Positions 16,229-58,643 of a stretch of 64,000 nucleotides of DNA are shown in pieces. The position numbers and the translations under genes were made by a program. The notes below the pieces were generated by a model. That model did no database searches. It saw only the letters and a program-made list of their open reading frames with translations, and was not told the DNA's origin. Location of the stretch: positions 62,001-126,000 of the forward strand of contig NZ_SBII01000009.1 of NCBI RefSeq assembly GCF_004028155.1. Direction: 5' to 3'. This DNA is from Flavobacterium cerinum (GTDB lineage: Bacteria; Bacteroidota; Bacteroidia; Flavobacteriales; Flavobacteriaceae). Positions within the stretch are counted from its first letter, which is position 1, and every line of letters starts with the position of its first letter.

Positions 16229-16238
16229 CAGTTCAATA

Positions 16239-16302
16239 TGGCAATGATGTCTGCCCTGAACCGCCCACCAATTCATTGGAGCTGATGACGTCTATTACTG
16301 GC
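16239..16302 (+). promoter_or_regulatory. Fluoride riboswitch (crcB motif)
   Basis: The sequence follows the crcB-motif consensus in order: GGCAATGATGTCTGCC (5' stem and loop), the GAACCGCC segment, a small variable hairpin (CCAATTCATTGG), then GCTGATGACGTCTATTACT. It lies directly upstream of a CLC transporter that carries the residues of fluoride-specific CLCs. No clear terminator follows before the start codon, so control may be at translation initiation. Confidence 0.94.
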
Positions 16303-23921: not shown

Positions 23922-23945
23922 CAGCAAGTTCTTTAAAAAATTATT

Positions 23946-24053
23946 CTTATCCAGAAAGACCGAGGGAATTGACCCTATGACGTCTTGGCAACCTGTCACG
24001 CTCTGCGCGATAAGGTGCCACATTCAACCTCTGCATTGGCAGGGAAAGATAAG
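23946..24053 (+). promoter_or_regulatory. SAM-I riboswitch (S box)
   Basis: Stem P1 is CTTATC (23946-23951) with GATAAG (24048-24053). The core follows the S-box order: CAGAAAGACCGAGGGA, TGACCCTATGACG, TTGGCAACC, then AAGGTGCCACATTC and GGCAGGGAAAGATAAG. It lies upstream of a terminator and two methionine-pathway genes. S-box RNAs lower expression when S-adenosylmethionine is abundant. Confidence 0.96.
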
Positions 24054-24088
24054 CTTAGAAAATAGTAAATAATACTTCAAAATATTAT

Positions 24089-24122
24089 ATGCTCTTCTGA
24101 CTTATCGGGGGAGCATTTTTTA
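24089..24122 (+). terminator. Riboswitch-controlled terminator
   Basis: ATGCTC pairs with GAGCAT, extended by further pairs, and a T run follows. The loop contains CTTATC (24101-24106), identical to the 5' strand of riboswitch P1 and so able to pair with the 3' strand GATAAG; this is a likely antiterminator switch. Confidence 0.85.
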
Positions 24123-24203
24123 TTTTATGCTCTCACCGATACCTGGGTTTAGGATGTTTTTTATTGACAAAAACATTTTTAATAAAACTAAACTCATATC
24201 AAA

Positions 24204-25382
24204 ATGAAAGAGCAGACTCAAATTTTACACAGCATTCCGGTAGACCCATTAACAGGTTCGATCTCTACCCCAATTTACCAAACGTCAACTTTTGTGCAGG
24301 AAGCTCCCGGGGTTCACAAAGGCTACGATTATGCCCGTAGTAACAACCCTACCCGAAAAGTGCTTGAGGACTGTATTGCAAAACTGGAAAACGGCACAAA
24401 CGGTTATGCTTTTGCAAGCGGACTTGCAGCTATAGACGCTGTAATAAAATTACTTGAAGCTGGCGACGAGGTTATTGCAGTAGATGATATTTATGGCGGA
24501 GCTTTCAGGTTGTTTACCCACATCTACCAAAAATTCGGAATCAGTATCAAATATGTAGATTCTACAAATTCGGCCAATATTGCAGCAGCAGTAACCGATA
24601 AAACAAAACTGATCTGGATCGAATCGCCTACAAATCCAACTCTAAAAATATCAGATATCAGAGCCATTGCTCAAATTGCAAAAGCGAACAAAGTACTGCT
24701 ATGCGTAGACAATACCTTTGCATCTCCGGCTGCTCAGAAACCAATTGACCTTGGTGCAGATATCGTTGTGCACAGTGCTACAAAATACCTTGCAGGACAC
24801 AGTGATATTATAGCAGGACTTGTAGTTACTGCTACACAGGAACTTGGCGACAAGATCAAATTTATACAAAATGCTTCGGGTGCTATACTGGGTCCGTTTG
24901 ACAGTTGGTTAGCCATAAGAGGAATCGAAACCCTTACACTGAGAATTAAACAGCATTCAGAAAATGCTCAAAAAATTGCAGAATTCCTACTGGAAGAAAA
25001 ATTAATAAAAAATGTTTACTATCCAGGGCTTCCTTCACATCACAATCATGAAATTGCAAAAAGCCAGCAAAAATATTTTGGCGGTGTAATTGCTTTCGAT
25101 CTTGTTATCGATGATAAAGAAATTGCTTCTCAAATTGTTTCTTCTACCAAGTTATTCAAATTGGCAGAAAGCCTAGGCGGTGTAAAAAGTTTGTGTTGTT
25201 TACCATGCGAAATGACTCATAAATCGATCCCGGCTGAAAAACGATACAGCTCTGGTGTTACCGACAGCCTTATCCGTTTGTCTGTTGGACTGGAAGATGC
25301 AGATGATCTTATTGATGATCTAAAGCAGGCTATTGAGGCTGCTGTTAAACAAAGTGCAGAAAAAAATACAGTAACCGCTTAA
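24204..25382 (+). CDS. metB: Trans-sulfuration enzyme, cystathionine gamma-synthase type
   Basis: This PLP enzyme of the Cys/Met-metabolism family has 392 residues. Key motifs are YDYARSNNPTRKVLE, FASGLAAIDAV, VDDIYGGAFRLF, IESPTNPTLKI, VDNTFASP, the PLP lysine in VVHSATKYLAGHSD and the C-terminal RLSVGLEDADDLIDDL. The family covers cystathionine gamma-synthase, gamma-lyase and O-acetylhomoserine sulfhydrylase. Placement behind a SAM riboswitch and before homoserine dehydrogenase favours a biosynthetic role from an activated homoserine, but lyase activity is not excluded. Homoserine dehydrogenase begins 9 nt after its stop. Confidence 0.9.
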   Translation: MKEQTQILHSIPVDPLTGSISTPIYQTSTFVQEAPGVHKGYDYARSNNPTRKVLEDCIAKLENGTNGYAFASGLAAIDAVIKLLEAGDEVIAVDDIYGGAFRLFTHIYQKFGISIKYVDSTNSANIAAAVTDKTKLIWIESPTNPTLKISDIRAIAQIAKANKVLLCVDNTFASPAAQKPIDLGADIVVHSATKYLAGHSDIIAGLVVTATQELGDKIKFIQNASGAILGPFDSWLAIRGIETLTLRIKQHSENAQKIAEFLLEEKLIKNVYYPGLPSHHNHEIAKSQQKYFGGVIAFDLVIDDKEIASQIVSSTKLFKLAESLGGVKSLCCLPCEMTHKSIPAEKRYSSGVTDSLIRLSVGLEDADDLIDDLKQAIEAAVKQSAEKNTVTA

Positions 25383-25391
25383 TTATCAATT

Positions 25392-26627
25392 ATGTCAAGA
25401 AAAGAATTAAATATCGGATTGTATGGTTTTGGCTGTGTAGGATTTGGACTTTATGAAGTACTTCAAAAAACACCCGGCTTAAAAGCTAATATTAAAAATA
25501 TCTGCGTTAAAGACCGAAATAAATCAAGGGAAATTGGTATTGAGAATTTTACATTCGATAAAAACGATATCCTGAATGATGATGAAATAAATGTAGTTGT
25601 AGAGTTGATCGATGATGCCGATGCGGCTTTCGAAATTGTTTCGGCGGCACTTAAAAAAGGTAAAGCAGTAGTTTCTGCTAACAAGAAAATGATTGCTGAG
25701 CATTTTACCGAACTGTTAGAACTACAGGAAAAATACAATGTCCCTTTATTGTATGAAGCGGCCTGCTGTGCAAGTATACCAATCATTCGAAACCTTGAAG
25801 AGTACTACGACAATGACCTTTTAGAATCTATAGAAGGAATTGTAAATGGTTCTACCAATTATATACTTACCAAAACCTTTGCCGAAAACCTGTCGTATGA
25901 TGAAGCTCTTAAACAGGCACAGGATAAAGGCTTTGCAGAAAGCAATCCAATACTGGATACCGGTGGTTTTGATGCCAAATACAAACTACTTATCCTTTTA
26001 GCCCACTCGTTTGGCTATGTAGCAAAACCTGCAGATATCTTTAATATAGGTATTGATGGTATTGGCGAACTGGAGCTTAAATATGCCCGTGAAAAAGGAC
26101 TTAAGATAAAGCTGGTAGCTCAGGCATTTAAAGGAACAGACGGTAATTTGTCCGCTTTTGTGATCCCAAAATTTGTATCAACCGAAGACCGACTTTATAA
26201 TGTAGACGATGTATTTAATGGTGTACTTGCAAAAACCAGCTTTGCCGATACGCAATTCTTTGTTGGCAAAGGTGCGGGTGCACACCCTACAGCTTCGGCA
26301 GTACTGTCTGACATTTCAGCTTTAAGCTATAATTATAGGTATGAATATAAAAAGATACGCCAGCAGGAAAACTTACTATTAAGTGATGATGTAAATCTAA
26401 AAGTACTGCTTCGCCATAAAAAAGAAGACAGTGAAACCTTTAAACAGCAGTTTTCTGCCATTGAAGAAGCATACACAAATAATGAAGTTGGGTACATTAC
26501 CGGAACCATATCATTTAAAAACCTAAGGACAATACAATCTGAAAACACGGGTGATAGGTCTTTTATCCTATTGCATGTAGTTACAGGACAGGAGGCTATT
26601 ATTGAAGAAGCTGTTTTAGCCCTGTAA
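25392..26627 (+). CDS. hom: Homoserine dehydrogenase
   Basis: This enzyme reduces aspartate semialdehyde to homoserine for methionine and threonine synthesis. It has 411 residues. The N-terminal Rossmann motif is LYGFGCVGFGLYEVL, VSANKKMIAEH is the conserved NAD-side signature, and the catalytic domain carries GIVNGSTNYILT, LDTGGFDAKYKLLILLAHSFG and the HPTASAVLSD loop. The C-terminal ~85 residues (HKKEDSETFKQQF onward) resemble a short regulatory extension. It is monofunctional, without aspartokinase. It is the second gene of the SAM-controlled unit. Confidence 0.95.
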   Translation: MSRKELNIGLYGFGCVGFGLYEVLQKTPGLKANIKNICVKDRNKSREIGIENFTFDKNDILNDDEINVVVELIDDADAAFEIVSAALKKGKAVVSANKKMIAEHFTELLELQEKYNVPLLYEAACCASIPIIRNLEEYYDNDLLESIEGIVNGSTNYILTKTFAENLSYDEALKQAQDKGFAESNPILDTGGFDAKYKLLILLAHSFGYVAKPADIFNIGIDGIGELELKYAREKGLKIKLVAQAFKGTDGNLSAFVIPKFVSTEDRLYNVDDVFNGVLAKTSFADTQFFVGKGAGAHPTASAVLSDISALSYNYRYEYKKIRQQENLLLSDDVNLKVLLRHKKEDSETFKQQFSAIEEAYTNNEVGYITGTISFKNLRTIQSENTGDRSFILLHVVTGQEAIIEEAVLAL

Positions 26628-54375: not shown

Positions 54376-54408
54376 AAGCAATGCTCACAAGGCATTGCTT
54401 TTTCTTTT
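54376..54408 (+). terminator. Intrinsic terminator of the pirin operon
   Basis: AAGCAATGC pairs perfectly with GCATTGCTT around a 7-nt loop, followed by T-rich sequence. Confidence 0.9.
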
Positions 54409-54510
54409 ACAGAAATACGAAAAACGCAACAAAAACACAACAAAACCTCATTTCGTTATTTTATTATTAAAAAAAACACAAATGTTATGCGATTTACCAA
54501 AACATCTTTA

Positions 54511-54518
54511 TACATTTG
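54511..54518 (+). promoter_or_regulatory. -7 promoter element of leader ORF 1
   Basis: TACATTTG is a perfect TAnnTTTG match. The leader start codon lies 9 nt downstream, so the transcript would have only a few nucleotides of 5' UTR. Confidence 0.6.
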
Positions 54519-54526
54519 CACTCGAA

Positions 54527-54613
54527 ATGAGAAACAACAGTCTACATATTACCTATTTGAAGAAGTGCAACATGATGCGTTGTATGACGAATCTATGGTA
54601 TGAACGGGCTTAA
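54527..54613 (+). CDS. Met/Cys-rich leader peptide 1 (28 residues)
   Basis: ATG 54527 opens a 28-codon frame: MRNNSLHITYLKK, then CNMMRCM, then TNLWYERA. The central seven residues hold three Met and two Cys codons. A small palindrome (AGTATATATACT, 54623-54634) and a strong terminator follow within 25 nt. With no detectable protein family and a terminator immediately behind it, this looks like a transcription-attenuation leader rather than a functional protein. The longer frame that starts further upstream crosses the promoter and was rejected. Confidence 0.65.
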   Translation: MRNNSLHITYLKKCNMMRCMTNLWYERA

Positions 54614-54636
54614 GCATAAACGAGTATATATACTTT

Positions 54637-54679
54637 AAAAAAGACCTTTCATATAACAATGAAAGGTCTTTTTATTTTT
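54637..54679 (+). terminator. Intrinsic terminator after leader ORF 1
   Basis: AAAAAGACCTTTCAT pairs perfectly with ATGAAAGGTCTTTTT around a 6-nt loop, and T residues follow. It probably works as an attenuator. Confidence 0.9.
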
Positions 54680-54745
54680 ATACACTTTTAGCCTCTCAGC
54701 TCAACAAAAAACAAAATTTATAAAAAAATAACATTTTATTATTAC

Positions 54746-54762
54746 TCTACTAAATTAGTAGA
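54746..54762 (+). promoter_or_regulatory. 17-nt palindromic operator
   Basis: TCTACTAAATTAGTAGA is a perfect inverted repeat (8-bp arms, one central base). It covers the expected -33 region of the promoter at 54776-54783. A repressor bound here would block the leader and the methionine-import operon. Confidence 0.75.
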
Positions 54763-54775
54763 CTTTTAAATCACT

Positions 54776-54783
54776 TATATTTG
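54776..54783 (+). promoter_or_regulatory. -7 promoter element of leader ORF 2
   Basis: TATATTTG is a perfect TAnnTTTG match, followed by GCACC as at the tRNA-Arg promoter. The palindromic operator lies at the -33 position. Confidence 0.75.
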
Positions 54784-54816
54784 CACCGGAATTATTCAGA
54801 ACTAAAATTAAAAACC

Positions 54817-55011
54817 ATGAAAAAAGTAATCACAACTGCTAAGACAAACAAATTCGAATCAAAATCGAATCGTTTCATGCATTTTCATGGCCATACTATG
54901 CATTTTAGCAAACGATATCATATGTGTATGCATACTATTAAAAATATGATGAATATGACATGTTGTTATATGTCAATGCCCGTGCCCTGTAAGAGTTCTT
55001 CTGCGATATAG
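54817..55011 (+). CDS. Met/His/Cys-rich leader peptide 2 (64 residues)
   Basis: ATG 54817 follows a promoter by about 30 nt. The first 20 residues are Lys/Ser/Thr-rich. The rest is highly enriched: MHFHGHTMHF, then YHMCMHTIKNMMNMTCCYM and SMPVPC. In all there are ten Met, six His and four Cys in 64 residues. A small hairpin (AGTTATA-CTAA-TATAACT) overlaps its stop, and a strong terminator begins 21 nt after the stop. The methionine-import operon follows without room for another promoter, so attenuation by Met (or Cys) codon reading is the likely role. A metal-binding small protein is an alternative. Confidence 0.65.
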   Translation: MKKVITTAKTNKFESKSNRFMHFHGHTMHFSKRYHMCMHTIKNMMNMTCCYMSMPVPCKSSSAI

Positions 55012-55031
55012 TTATACTAATATAACTGCTC

Positions 55032-55069
55032 AAGCCCTTTTACAACACATGTAAAAGGGCTTTTTTTTT
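55032..55069 (+). terminator. Attenuator terminator before the metNIQ operon
   Basis: AAGCCCTTTTAC pairs perfectly with GTAAAAGGGCTT around a 7-nt loop, followed by nine T residues. The next gene starts 35 nt later with no promoter in between, so its expression needs read-through. Confidence 0.93.
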
Positions 55070-55103
55070 AAACCATTTCCATCCACCTTTAATAAATTTT
55101 AAT

Positions 55104-56102
55104 ATGAGTACAATTGTCAACAACTTCAAACTTCGTGTCCTCCTCGCCTTTGTAGGTATCTACATTATATGGGGAACAACCTATTTAGCAATATCTTACG
55201 GCCTTAAAGGCTTCCCTCCTTTTATATTATCCGGTTTGCGTTTCCTGGTTGCAGGTATTATTATCCTGCTTTGGCTTTGGAAAAAAGGCGAAAAACCTAA
55301 CTCATTAACCAACTGGTATAAAAACCTGATACCTGGTATATTTATCCTTGCTATTGGTGTAGGTCTGGTAGCATGGGCAGAGCAATACCTTAGCTCTACC
55401 GAAGCCGCTATTATCATGGCAAGCGAACCTTTTTGGTTTATTCTATTAGACAAAAAGAACTGGAAAAACTACCTGTCTAACCCTTTAGTAATTACCGGAC
55501 TTGTTATTGGTATGGGTGGTTTGCTATTATTCTTAAAAGACAGCCTTCAGAACGGTGCTCATACTGCAGATGATACAATGAGGTATGCTTCATTTGGAAT
55601 CTTATTCATCAGTTCACTGTTATGGGTATTGGGTTCGCTCTTTTCTAAAAACAGGGCATCAAGCCACTCTATTTTCATGAACGTGGGGCAACAGCTTATA
55701 GTTGGGGGTGTTACGAGCCTGATAATAGCTTCGATTCTTGGCGAATGGACCGTTATTAACTGGAGTGCTATTCCGTTAGAAGCCTGGTCTGGTCTTGCCT
55801 ACCTTATTGTATTTGGATCTATTATAGCCTACCTGTCATTTATATGGCTGCTTTCTATAAAACCTCCGGCACTGGTAAGTACGCATACCTATGTAAACCC
55901 TGTTGTTGCGGTTGTATTTGGATGGATCATTGCCAATGAGAATATAACCGGTATGCAGACAATTGGGTTGCTTGTAATCCTACTTGGCGTACTATTAACA
56001 AACATGATAAATTATAAGATCACAAAAAGATCTAAAGTTAAATGGCGAAAAGTGGAACGTATATTCTCAAGGAATAATGGTTACAAACATAGCACAAACT
56101 AA
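55104..56102 (+). CDS. EamA/DMT-family exporter in the methionine operon
   Basis: This membrane protein has 332 residues with ten helices and two EamA halves: YIIWGTTYLAISYGLKGFPPF at the start (typical of the RhaT/YedA group), GLVAWAEQYLSSTEAAIIMASEPFW mid-way, and the second half with STHTYVNPVVAVVFGWIIANE. YedA-like members export amino acids or related metabolites. It is the first gene behind the leader terminator, and metN starts 21 nt after it. Co-transcription with a methionine importer suggests handling of a sulfur amino acid or analogue, which is inference. Confidence 0.85.
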   Translation: MSTIVNNFKLRVLLAFVGIYIIWGTTYLAISYGLKGFPPFILSGLRFLVAGIIILLWLWKKGEKPNSLTNWYKNLIPGIFILAIGVGLVAWAEQYLSSTEAAIIMASEPFWFILLDKKNWKNYLSNPLVITGLVIGMGGLLLFLKDSLQNGAHTADDTMRYASFGILFISSLLWVLGSLFSKNRASSHSIFMNVGQQLIVGGVTSLIIASILGEWTVINWSAIPLEAWSGLAYLIVFGSIIAYLSFIWLLSIKPPALVSTHTYVNPVVAVVFGWIIANENITGMQTIGLLVILLGVLLTNMINYKITKRSKVKWRKVERIFSRNNGYKHSTN

Positions 56103-56123: not shown

Positions 56124-57155
56124 ATGATAGAATTAAAGAACATAACAAAAAAGTTTTATAAGACCGGAAGGGAAATAACTGCGTTGCAGGATGTTTCCCT
56201 AAGGGTTCCTCCCGGAAAGATCTTTGGCGTGATAGGAACATCCGGAGCGGGGAAAAGTACGTTGATACGTACCATTAATTTATTAGAAAAACCCACTTCG
56301 GGGGAGGTTATAGTAGATGGTAAATCATTATTAAAACTCTCTAACTCGCAACTGGCACAGGAAAGAAGACAGATAGGAATGATATTCCAACACTTTAATC
56401 TTTTATCTTCCCGAACCGTTTTTGAGAACATTGCTTTTCCATTAGAACTGGCTGGAACTCCTAAAATTCTCATTAAAGAAAGGGTTAAAGAATTACTTGA
56501 GTTAGTAGGCCTTACTGATAAAATAAACGATTATCCATCAAATCTTTCGGGAGGGCAAAAGCAGCGAGTTGCAATTGCAAGAACGCTTGCCAATAATCCG
56601 AAGGTTTTATTGTGTGATGAGGCAACTAGTGCACTCGATCCTGCAACTACAAGATCGATATTAAATCTGCTAAAAGACATCAATAAACGTCTTAATATAA
56701 CCATACTACTCATCACCCATCAAATGGAAGTTATTAAAGCCATTTGTGATGAAGTAGCTGTAATAAGTCATGGAGAATTAGTAGAACAGGGCACGGTAAG
56801 TGACATATTTACCAATGCAAAAAATGAATTGACACGGGAGTTTATCGCTTCTTCTTTGCATATCGAAATTCCGGCTATCTATCAGGAACGATTAGTTACT
56901 CTATATAAAACCGGCCTATACCCTTTACTGCGCTTGGAACTCAATGGTAAATCGGTAGATGAACCTATACTAACCGATGCCGCTAAACAATTTGGAATCA
57001 ATGCCAATATTATCACAGCGCAAACGGCTTATGCCGGAGACACCAATTTTGGGATTCTAATTATCGAATTGTCCGGTGATGAAAACCAGCAAAAAGAAAC
57101 TATAGAATATTTTAAATCGAAACATATAAAAACTGAAATACTGGGCTATGTCTGA
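56124..57155 (+). CDS. metN: Methionine ABC importer ATPase
   Basis: This ATP-binding subunit has 343 residues. Walker A is GTSGAGKST, the signature is [20 protein letters not shown] and Walker B is [13 protein letters not shown], with a switch His in LLITHQME. The C-terminal ~80 residues form a NIL (regulatory methionine-binding) domain, as in E. coli MetN, where bound methionine inhibits transport. Its end overlaps the metI start by 8 nt. Import of D/L-methionine is well supported by the MetI and MetQ neighbours. Confidence 0.96.
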
Positions 57156-57801
57156 ATCTATTATCACATTACTATTAAAAGGAACATGGGAAACCATCAT
57201 GATGACGTTTGTATCCGGTTTCTTTGGATTCCTTTTAGGGCTTCCGGCTGGTATATTGCTGTTCCTTACCCGAAAAGACCAAATCTTAGAAAATGTTATT
57301 ATTAACAGAGGCCTATCAGTTCTTGTAAACGTCTTCAGGTCGATACCTTTCATTATTTTAATCGTATGGATGATCCCTTTTACAAGAGCACTGGTTGGAA
57401 CATCCATAGGTGTTAGTGCTGCTTTAGTACCGCTTAGTATTGGTGCTGCACCATTTATTGCAAGGCTTGTAGAAAACAGCCTGTTGGGTTTACCATCCGG
57501 ATTAATTGAAGCTGCCCGTGCATTGGGAGCTACTCCATTACAAATTGTATACAAAGTATTATTACCGGAAGCACTTCCATCACTTATCAATGCTGCATCT
57601 ATAACGCTAATTACCCTTGTAGGCTATTCGGCTATGGGTGGTGCTGTTGGTGCCGGTGGACTGGGACAAATAGGCTATCAGTATGGTTACATCGGTTATG
57701 ATGTTACTATAATGAATACCGTATTAGTATTGCTTGTTGCATTGGTATTTATAATACAATTCTCGGGCGATGCCCTTTCTAAATATTTTGATCACAGATA
57801 A
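57148..57801 (+). CDS. metI: Methionine ABC importer permease
   Basis: This inner-membrane permease of 217 residues has five helices. The coupling-helix motif [24 protein letters not shown] contacts MetN. The N-terminal [20 protein letters not shown] is typical of MetI. The overlap with metN and the 23-nt gap to metQ show a single operon. Confidence 0.96.
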
Positions 57802-57824
57802 AAACTAATAATAAAATAATAACC

Positions 57825-58643
57825 ATGAATACTAAAATAAAATTTTCTGCACTAACAGGAATACTATTATTAAGCCTGACACTTACCAATTGTGGAGGTG
57901 ATAAAAAAAGTGACTCTAACCATATTAAAGTAGGTGTTGCTGCCGGACCTGAATTTGCAGTGGCACAGGCGGCACAGAAAGTAGCGAAAGAAAAATACAA
58001 TCTGGAAGTAGAACTGATATCTTTCAATGACTATGTTGTGCCAAACGAAGCCCTAAACCAGGGAGATATCGATGTGAATGCTTTTCAGCACAAACCGTAT
58101 CTGGATGCACAATCTGAACAAAGAGGATACAAACTGGCTATCGTAGGTAAAACCTTTGTTTTCCCTATTGCGGCATATTCAAAGAAAATCAAGTCGCTTA
58201 CTGAGTTAAAACCGGGAAGCACCATTATTATTCCTAATGACCCTACCAACGGAGGGAGATCATTATTACTTCTTCAAAAGAATGGTCTTTTAAAACTTAA
58301 AGACGGCATTGGTCTATTGCCAAAAGTAACCGATATTACAGAGAATCCTAAGAACCTTAAAATACTGGAACTTGAAGCACCGCAAATACCAAGGGCACTG
58401 GATGATGAGAATGTAACGATCGCTATCATTAATAACACATTTTCGTCTCAGGCAGGGCTTGTTCCTTCCCGTGATGCTTTATTTGTAGAAGACAAAGATT
58501 CTCCGTATGTTAACCTCGTCGTTTCCAGAGAGGACAATAAGACAGATGATAAAGTGCAACGTTTCTTAAAAGCCTATCAATCAGTAGAGGTAGAAAAGGC
58601 GGCTGAGAAAGAATTTAAAGGAGGAGCCATAAAAGGCTGGTAA
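57825..58643 (+). CDS. metQ: Methionine-binding lipoprotein
   Basis: This substrate-binding lipoprotein has 272 residues. The lipobox LTNC places the lipidated Cys near residue 23. NlpA/MetQ signatures follow: IKVGVAAGPEFAVAQAA, then YVVPNEALNQGDIDVNAFQHKPYLD and IIIPNDPTNGGRSLLLLQ, with PRALDDENVTIAIINNTF near residue 190. It delivers methionine to MetNI. A UPF0126 membrane-protein gene begins 4 nt after its stop. Confidence 0.96.
   Translation: MNTKIKFSALTGILLLSLTLTNCGGDKKSDSNHIKVGVAAGPEFAVAQAAQKVAKEKYNLEVELISFNDYVVPNEALNQGDIDVNAFQHKPYLDAQSEQRGYKLAIVGKTFVFPIAAYSKKIKSLTELKPGSTIIIPNDPTNGGRSLLLLQKNGLLKLKDGIGLLPKVTDITENPKNLKILELEAPQIPRALDDENVTIAIINNTFSSQAGLVPSRDALFVEDKDSPYVNLVVSREDNKTDDKVQRFLKAYQSVEVEKAAEKEFKGGAIKGW

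Follow-up and report, generated by a model that had tools for sequence, protein, structure and literature searches.

What decides whether the methionine importer of Flavobacterium cerinum is transcribed? We analysed a window of 64,000 nucleotides (contig NZ_SBII01000009.1, forward strand) in which the start codon of a gene for an EamA-family transporter (DMT), at 55104, lies 34 nt past the second of two T-runs and is followed by the genes for MetN, MetI and MetQ. The original prediction, made from the sequence alone, had set upstream of this operon short ORFs dense in Met and Cys codons, AT hairpins, terminators and the 34-nt gap, and all of these could be located (Table 1). The paired leaders, whose arrangement is retained in related species, suggest a two-step RNA switch that allows the operon to be read only when sulfur amino acids are short.

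Organisation of the locus

The elements in 54511-55103 follow one another in the order P1 box, leader ORF 1, AT hairpin, terminator T1, palindrome, P2 box, leader ORF 2, AT hairpin, terminator T2. The locus thereby meets the basic definition of an attenuator, a short ORF rich in regulatory codons and an intrinsic terminator before the first gene. The two TAnnTTTG boxes are read as promoters on the Bacteroidetes promoter consensus, which we presume applies here; promoter function is inferred. The best NCBIfam model for the DMT protein (exporter YedA) scores below its cutoff. The idea that DMT is an orphan held in 59 relatives at E<=1e-60 and was dropped when wider searches found homologues.

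Table 1. Features of the leader region and the operon behind it (window coordinates unless a locus is named)
Feature	Position	Strand	Basis or remark
Promoter P1, -7 box TACATTTG (TAnnTTTG)	54511..54518	+	8 nt before leader 1 ATG
Leader 1 ORF, 28 aa, MRNNSLHITYLKKCNMMRCMTNLWYERA	54527..54613	+	
Antiterminator arm 1 TATGAACGGGCTT, end of ORF1	54599..54611	+	11/13 positions complementary to 54641-54653
AT hairpin in antiterminator 1 loop	54622..54635	+	MFE of 54588-54656
Intrinsic terminator T1, 15 pairs	54638..54673	+	Fold and homologous terminators
17-nt palindrome TCTACTAAATTAGTAGA, candidate operator at P2 (inferred)	54746..54762	+	
Promoter P2, -7 box TATATTTG (TAnnTTTG)	54776..54783	+	
Leader 2 ORF, 64 aa, Met/Cys/His-rich, ending ...HMCMHTIKNMMNMTCCYMSMPVPCKSSSAI	54817..55011	+	
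Antiterminator arm 2 TGTAAGAGTTCTT, within ORF2 end	54988..55000	+	11/13 pair with 55032-55044
AT hairpin AGTTATACTAATATAACT within antiterminator 2	55010..55027	+	Fold
Intrinsic terminator T2, 13 pairs, then T7	55032..55062	+	Fold
EamA-family (DMT) transporter gene	55104..56102	+	Pfam PF00892, 5.4e-36
metN-metI-metQ methionine importer genes	56124..58643	+	Pfam; MetQ model NF008285 428 bits, cutoff 374
Palindrome copies, TCTACTAAATTAGTAGA or complement	window 54746-54762; L200 3016-3032; L201 2902-2918		

At the gathering threshold, Rfam 15 gave no riboswitch or T-box match in 54400-55103. Over the whole window, Rfam matches only a SAM riboswitch, a fluoride riboswitch (16231-16301, 43.7 bits) and a tRNA. 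The SAM riboswitch (23944-24055) precedes a cystathionine gamma-synthase/lyase-family gene, for which the NCBIfam models score below cutoff, and a gene resembling homoserine dehydrogenase by eye also lies downstream of it, within 23944-26627.

Enrichment of Met and Cys codons

Met and Cys account for 2.9% of codons in the 32 long ORFs of the window. Against this baseline, leader 1 carries five such codons among the 27 after its start (binomial 1e-3) and leader 2 carries 13 among 63 (3e-8). The window holds 39 terminator-like sites on its two strands, 17 of them preceded by a short ORF, and when the densest start is used at each site (for leader 2, an internal ATG) the two leaders take ranks 1 and 2 for Met+Cys content (0.36 and 0.19; next 0.11). 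The leader and terminator segments also fold better than their shuffles, with z scores of -4.36 and -3.47. Across the 14 leaders of seven tandem loci, 101 of 408 codons after the start encode Met or Cys. The binomial p value is below 1e-3 for 13 of the 14; the remaining one, leader 1 of G225, has just three Met/Cys codons (p 0.039). None of these p values takes account of relatedness. Chance therefore does not account for the pairing of a Met/Cys-rich leader with a terminator. Among the leader 1 sequences Met (12.6%) is at least as frequent as Cys (8.6%), and the Cys codons of the leaders vary synonymously (TGT 78, TGC 69).

Leader 1 as a conserved metN leader

A search of 398 congeners at E<=1e-90 finds MetN in 76, one of which is the window genome. 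Of the other 75, 62 have a homologue of leader 1 in front of metN (60 found by script; L168 and L120 by eye). The peptides resemble MRKNDQNMKNYYNSSMMCCTIVMQFIELASI, and the Met/Cys core is retained in all except L120, whose core is weak (one Cys, no MMCC). The metN upstream regions without a leader number 12, from nine near relatives with enough upstream sequence and three others; L098, with only 21 nt upstream, could not be assessed. Leader 1 homologues also occur upstream of DMT in six other congeners.

After removal of the duplicates L183 and L184, 61 distinct leader 1 rows (the window and 60 relatives) were aligned as A1. In 61/61 metN-type leader 1 entries, three identical leaders among them, a box TAAATTTG precedes the ATG by exactly 8 nt. 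From this spacing and the presumed Bacteroidetes promoter consensus, we infer that leader 1 mRNA is probably leaderless or nearly so. The homologues of T1 have 99.0% of cells paired over the 61 rows, and two pairs show compensatory changes (6 cells versus 0.7 in shuffles). A GGCT block able to pair with the 5' arm of the terminator is invariant in every row, including ten in which the ORF stops upstream of it (L113, L114, L118, L119, L122, L123, L168, L178, L186 and L190), which indicates that GGCT is kept as RNA. The prediction that relatives would conserve the Met/Cys codons and the terminators is thus met for leader 1, in 62 of 75 regions and 61 aligned rows. Its corollary, that the rest of the peptide drifts, needs qualifying: the N-terminal half of leader 1 (N 15% and Y 9% of residues) is conserved and does not vary freely.

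Some sister species appear to be controlled otherwise. The Flavobacterium metNIQ operons of L016-L024, L097 and L099-L106 have no detected leader and carry an operator-like motif at the promoter. In Chryseobacterium and Epilithonimonas, metN genes without DMT (L036, L040, L044, L047, L050, L074) are preceded by short Cys-containing ORFs, MLKFCFVCCSNIFQ and kin, recognised by eye. Several of these have few or no Met codons beyond the start and a terminator that resembles that of leader 1; judged by eye, the metN leaders of these genera are mainly Cys leaders.

Tandem leaders accompany the DMT gene

Of 396 congeners, seven have a DMT homologue at E<=1e-70, counting the window genome (G000), and in all seven two Met/Cys leaders, each with its terminator, lie directly upstream of DMT. 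The other six have no MetN match at the E<=1e-90 cutoff in the search of 398 genomes; DMT is followed there by an AA_permease gene in four and an SDF symporter gene in one, and at the sixth locus (L276) no ORF of 100 aa follows DMT in the sequence piece examined. The expectation of two leaders before a Met importer therefore needs modifying: the tandem order is kept in 7/7 DMT-bearing congeners, but the pair goes with the DMT gene and not with metNIQ as such. If the attenuation proposed below is true, the so far unassigned EamA-family protein would be expected to help supply sulfur amino acids by transport.

The window differs from the other six tandem loci in the space between its leaders. 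In the six, the end of T1 and the ATG of leader 2 are separated by about 25-50 nt (five loci by script; G225 by eye, about 26 nt), and none has a TAnnTTTG box in the stretch from one leader to the next. In the window the interval is 143 nt and contains P2 and the palindrome. With the short gap and the missing promoter box, the leaders of the six congeners look, by sequence alone, like two attenuators in series on one transcript, and one promoter probably serves both. The description of the locus as two successive transcription units suits this genome, with its P1 and P2, but probably not the other six Flavobacterium pairs.

In a second family of the order (f5), 23 of 395 genomes searched carry DMT (E<=1e-70). 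metN lies downstream of DMT in all 22 loci examined. A single leader, MKAEFKNNSIKKHTIKNMMKDICMPIHQEYCG and kin, is present in 21 of the 22 readable loci (370-520 nt examined), and G770 has two leaders in tandem. The single-leader loci carry, by eye, an operator-like motif together with a promoter box comparable to P2. The f5 terminator is 95.9% paired, with 8 compensatory cells versus 2.4 in shuffles. G096 was left out of the comparison of DMT loci, as its contig begins inside the gene.

Leader 2

Leader 2 has no homologue better than E 1e-3 in the 397 other congeners. Its candidacy as a conserved small protein was rejected after 16 weak matches proved on inspection to be stop-interrupted or unrelated frames. 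Its position before a terminator and DMT is matched in six congeners, where the peptides (22-64 aa across species) have little in common except Met and Cys. The string HTIKNMM is common to the window leader 2 and the f5 DMT leaders (E 5e-4, in a single comparison chosen by eye), and so homology between them is suggested, not proved, by this sequence match.

Alternative folds at the leader ends

When the leader 2 transcript is cut before the 3' arm of T2 (54980-55046), it is predicted to fold into an antiterminator with the AT hairpin inside (-14.1 kcal/mol, z -2.92, 1/200 shuffles as good); the full transcript folds T2 instead. For leader 1, cut likewise before the 3' arm of T1, the antiterminator is present in the MFE structure and is weak alone (-8.7 kcal/mol, z -0.90), with an RNAduplex p=0.022 for arm 1 against the T1 5' arm.

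The same arrangement recurs in the 16 leaders of eight tandem loci. In folds without the 3' arm, the terminator 5' arm pairs with the end of the leader, taken to extend no further than 8 nt beyond the stop codon, in 16/16, over 6 to 11 positions. Pooled, the leaders give 143 paired positions; 300 shuffles of the leader ends give 68.6 +/- 12.1 and at most 100. The arm sequences differ among loci and complementarity is kept: ATGAAC faces GTTCAT in G236, TGTAAGAG faces CTTTTACA in the window leader 2, and TTGTATTGG faces CCGATACAA in G770. By script, 13 of 14 leaders have 19-34 nt between stop and terminator. The terminator of the 14th, G225 leader 1, was assigned by hand in the pairing and fold tests.

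Single leaders give less support. Duplex p values against shuffles are 0.007-0.067 for the first leaders (n=7) and 0.019-0.575 for the second (n=7), those of G112 and G347 leader 2 being weak (p 0.41 and 0.58); Fisher combination yields 7e-6 and 0.003, relatedness uncorrected. In f5, seven leaders give p 0.03-0.25 and G770 gives 0.03 and 0.44. Only 20 of the 61 A1 rows reach p <0.05. A whole-fold test is below 0.05 in 4/16 leaders and above it in 12/16 (Fisher 0.005 and 0.0004 for the two sets). No compensatory changes in the antiterminator were found within A1 (97.7% paired) or A2 (93.3% paired), which makes it conserved, not covarying. In arm swaps, the mean binding energy of leader 2 ends is -9.97 kcal/mol with their own arm, -9.21 with the leader 1 arm of the same species, and -8.36 and -7.91 with the leader 2 and leader 1 arms of other species; for leader 1 ends it is -11.60 with their own arm and -11.66 with the leader 1 arms of other species. 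The specificity of the pairing is thus modest. With single-leader tests weak and covariation absent, the case for the antiterminators rests on the aggregate, on position and on conservation. A mutually exclusive antiterminator at the leader end, which the original prediction did not include, is thus a model supported in aggregate, with single-leader tests often not significant.

The palindrome, cysE and other loci

Exact matches to the 15-nt core of the palindrome, CTACTAAATTAGTAG, number three in the genome: one at P2, one in front of cysE-cysK and one in front of a fatty-acid-hydroxylase-family gene. A genome search that tolerated two mismatches or fewer found the palindrome not clearly commoner than its reversed control. 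It is possibly the operator of an unidentified sulfur amino-acid regulator, a function that is inferred.

The cysE-cysK genes of the same genome (L200 2780-3060, minus strand) are preceded by a Cys leader, MKFTPVYLACLCCSLR, and an intrinsic terminator; the antiterminator of this leader is not better than shuffles (duplex p 0.52). By eye, a Cys-rich short ORF before a terminator-like hairpin is present at 8 of 29 other cysE-like loci (L224, L226, L227, L229, L235, L237, L240 and L243). L246, L249, L250 and L252, also cysE-like, show a Cys codon run by eye, with start and terminator not established.

A covariance model of leader 1 led to a second leader family, upstream of a glutamate-dehydrogenase-family gene whose best NCBIfam model is below cutoff. 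All 13 of the further loci examined have a leader, its terminator and then another Met/Cys ORF. The script found no second terminator after the second ORF in these 13; by eye, a terminator-like hairpin follows it in one more locus, L305. The gene is followed in two loci by one that looks hydroxylase-like by eye. These loci (L304, L305, L306, L316, L318 and L320-L332) are an unexpected target for sulfur amino-acid control. At L313 (~1516-1950), two Met/Cys leaders with two terminators lie upstream of a metY-like O-acetylhomoserine sulfhydrylase gene; the other strand has a SAM-II match at 1221-1324. L319 (~318-1210) has two leaders with terminators, a small ORF and then a SAM-I riboswitch, followed by genes that, by eye, resemble metX and an aspartokinase type; L333-L335 have a similar leader arrangement. 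Because a small ORF and then the riboswitch follow them, the L319 leaders were not counted as met-operon leaders.

Other matches of the model were set aside. The own-genome match C2:138367 is a plain terminator ending another gene, the weak matches L307-L310 look like plain terminators, and the weak matches L336-L339 have no Met/Cys leader. The inspected matches leave out L311, L312, L314 and L315.

Proposed mechanism and alternatives

We propose that the locus holds two ribosome-mediated transcription attenuators in series that respond to Met/Cys-tRNA shortage, and assign this reading a probability of about 0.8 in the absence of RNA, ribosome-profiling or growth data. The attenuation originally predicted is supported by the observed ORFs with their codon bias, by terminators that are conserved, and by alternative pairing computed in silico, which holds in aggregate. 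The amino-acid uptake genes that follow DMT and, by eye, the Cys-rich leaders before cysE also speak for it. Translation of the leaders, ribosome stalling, the inducing amino acid and the logic of the series are inferred.

Flavobacteriia mRNAs are not known to have strong Shine-Dalgarno sites. RNA polymerase would start at P1 and a ribosome would translate the near-leaderless leader 1. With Met- and Cys-tRNA plentiful, the ribosome would reach the stop codon and cover the last ~20 nt of the ORF, allowing T1 to fold and transcription to end. A ribosome stalled at the Met/Cys cluster would instead leave the ORF end to pair with the 5' arm of T1, in an antiterminator that carries the AT hairpin in its loop, and the polymerase would read on. 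Leader 2 and T2 would repeat the same choice before DMT-metNIQ. Two such locks in series may multiply repression and make release steep. In the window only, P2 and the putative palindromic operator enter between the locks, and P2 transcripts would meet T2 alone where P1 transcripts meet both. The signal would be charged Met-tRNA, Cys-tRNA or both; both leaders carry both codons, and Met and Cys cannot be separated.

Could the leader ORFs instead encode real small proteins, for example His/Met/Cys-rich metal-binding ones, with terminators that just end their own transcripts? Leader 2, whose 64 aa include 6 His, 10 Met and 4 Cys, has a suitable composition, and the conserved N-terminal half of leader 1 would also fit; yet leader 2 has no Pfam match, its counterparts share little across species except Met and Cys, and 10 of 61 leader 1 ORFs end early while the RNA block downstream is kept. 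The predicted pairing of leader end and terminator arm in 16/16, and the gap of only about 25-50 nt, free of any TAnnTTTG box, from T1 to leader 2 in six species, add to the reasons why we regard this explanation as very unlikely. Control of the operon by a transcription factor bound to the P2 palindrome would reduce the leaders to relics, or to setting basal read-through only. It draws on the three exact copies of the core, one of them upstream of cysE-cysK, and on the leaderless relatives that retain an operator-like motif upstream of metN. Leaders, terminators and antiterminators nevertheless persist at the six other tandem loci, which have no P2-like box between the leaders, and we consider such a factor very unlikely to explain the locus.

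Attenuation could also be real and answer to another signal, such as nascent-peptide arrest or a general slowing of translation. The N-terminal conservation of leader 1 beyond its Met/Cys core would suit an arrest peptide, as would the weak cores of leader 1 in L120 and G225 a signal other than these amino acids. Leader 2, however, has the same Met/Cys bias and no conserved flanks, Cys codons are synonymously variable, and several leaders before cysE genes are Cys-rich; we think a different signal unlikely. Returning to attenuation by Met/Cys-tRNA shortage, we find the odds evenly balanced that it extends to a sulfur amino-acid regulon of the Flavobacteriia, in which serial near-leaderless Met/Cys attenuators would stand at unrelated operons and single Cys locks on cysE. 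The unrelated operons would be DMT with an amino-acid importer, metY, and the glutamate-dehydrogenase-family gene, where the second ORF usually lacks its own terminator. Should the attenuation proposed for the locus prove true, Flavobacteriia would count leader peptides among their important means of controlling sulfur amino acids.

Comparison with known systems

Classical amino-acid leader-peptide attenuators are of the trp, his, leu and ilv type. The present leaders resemble them in having a short ORF rich in codons of the pathway, a terminator before the first gene and an antiterminator that uses the 5' arm of the terminator. They differ in using Met/Cys codons, in standing two in series, in the very short 5' leader before ORF1 and in their occurrence in Bacteroidota. 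SAM riboswitches and T-boxes likewise provide methionine-linked attenuation; unlike them, the leaders have no Rfam match.

Comparative work from 2004 reportedly discussed attenuators beyond Proteobacteria, and we make no claim of phylum-level priority for this reason. The part available to us of a 2010 survey states that no leader-peptide systems were known outside Proteobacteria and Actinobacteria except ermC, and adds one in Firmicutes (PMC2965389). Short ORFs reminiscent of leader peptides are mentioned for Bacteroides 5' UTRs in the available portion of another study (PMC7366714). Among the matches listed in a search of open-licence literature only, no description of Met/Cys leader attenuators in Flavobacteriia was found; the mechanism is of a known kind, and it is the serial same-codon form in Flavobacteriia that these matches do not contain.

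Polycysteine leaderless ORFs of mycobacteria are reportedly the subject of work by Canestrari in 2020, to go by its title. In Actinobacteria, according to the portion of the paper at hand, leader ORFs with Cys codons precede sulfur amino-acid genes without obvious terminators (PMC1262725). Within the limits of that portion, our leaders are alike in that short ORFs with Cys codon runs precede genes for sulfur amino acids, and probably in being leaderless, and unlike in having terminators and in using Met codons also. They do not qualify as polycysteine leaderless ORFs, for which an intrinsic terminator should be absent: terminators are present, and Met at least equals Cys.

A parallel in layout is the Salmonella mgtCBR leader, whose tandem attenuators respond additively to different signals (ATP and proline) and which is called a singular example in the excerpt available (PMC3641672). 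So far as that excerpt describes it, both systems have a transport operon preceded by a pair of short ORFs with attenuation-like control, here apparently within a single leader. Unlike in mgtCBR, Met/Cys codons occur in both ORFs here, and an intrinsic terminator follows each of them. That the two share one transcript is judged by sequence only, from the gap of about 25-50 nt and the missing box in six congeners, with the extra P2 in the window. As both leaders are enriched in Met and Cys, we do not class the locus as a member of the mgtCBR kind and say only that it works alike. Double locks with the same signal on one transcript would, if confirmed, give a multiplicative, switch-like response, and such same-signal attenuators would be a natural test of how serial termination sharpens a response.
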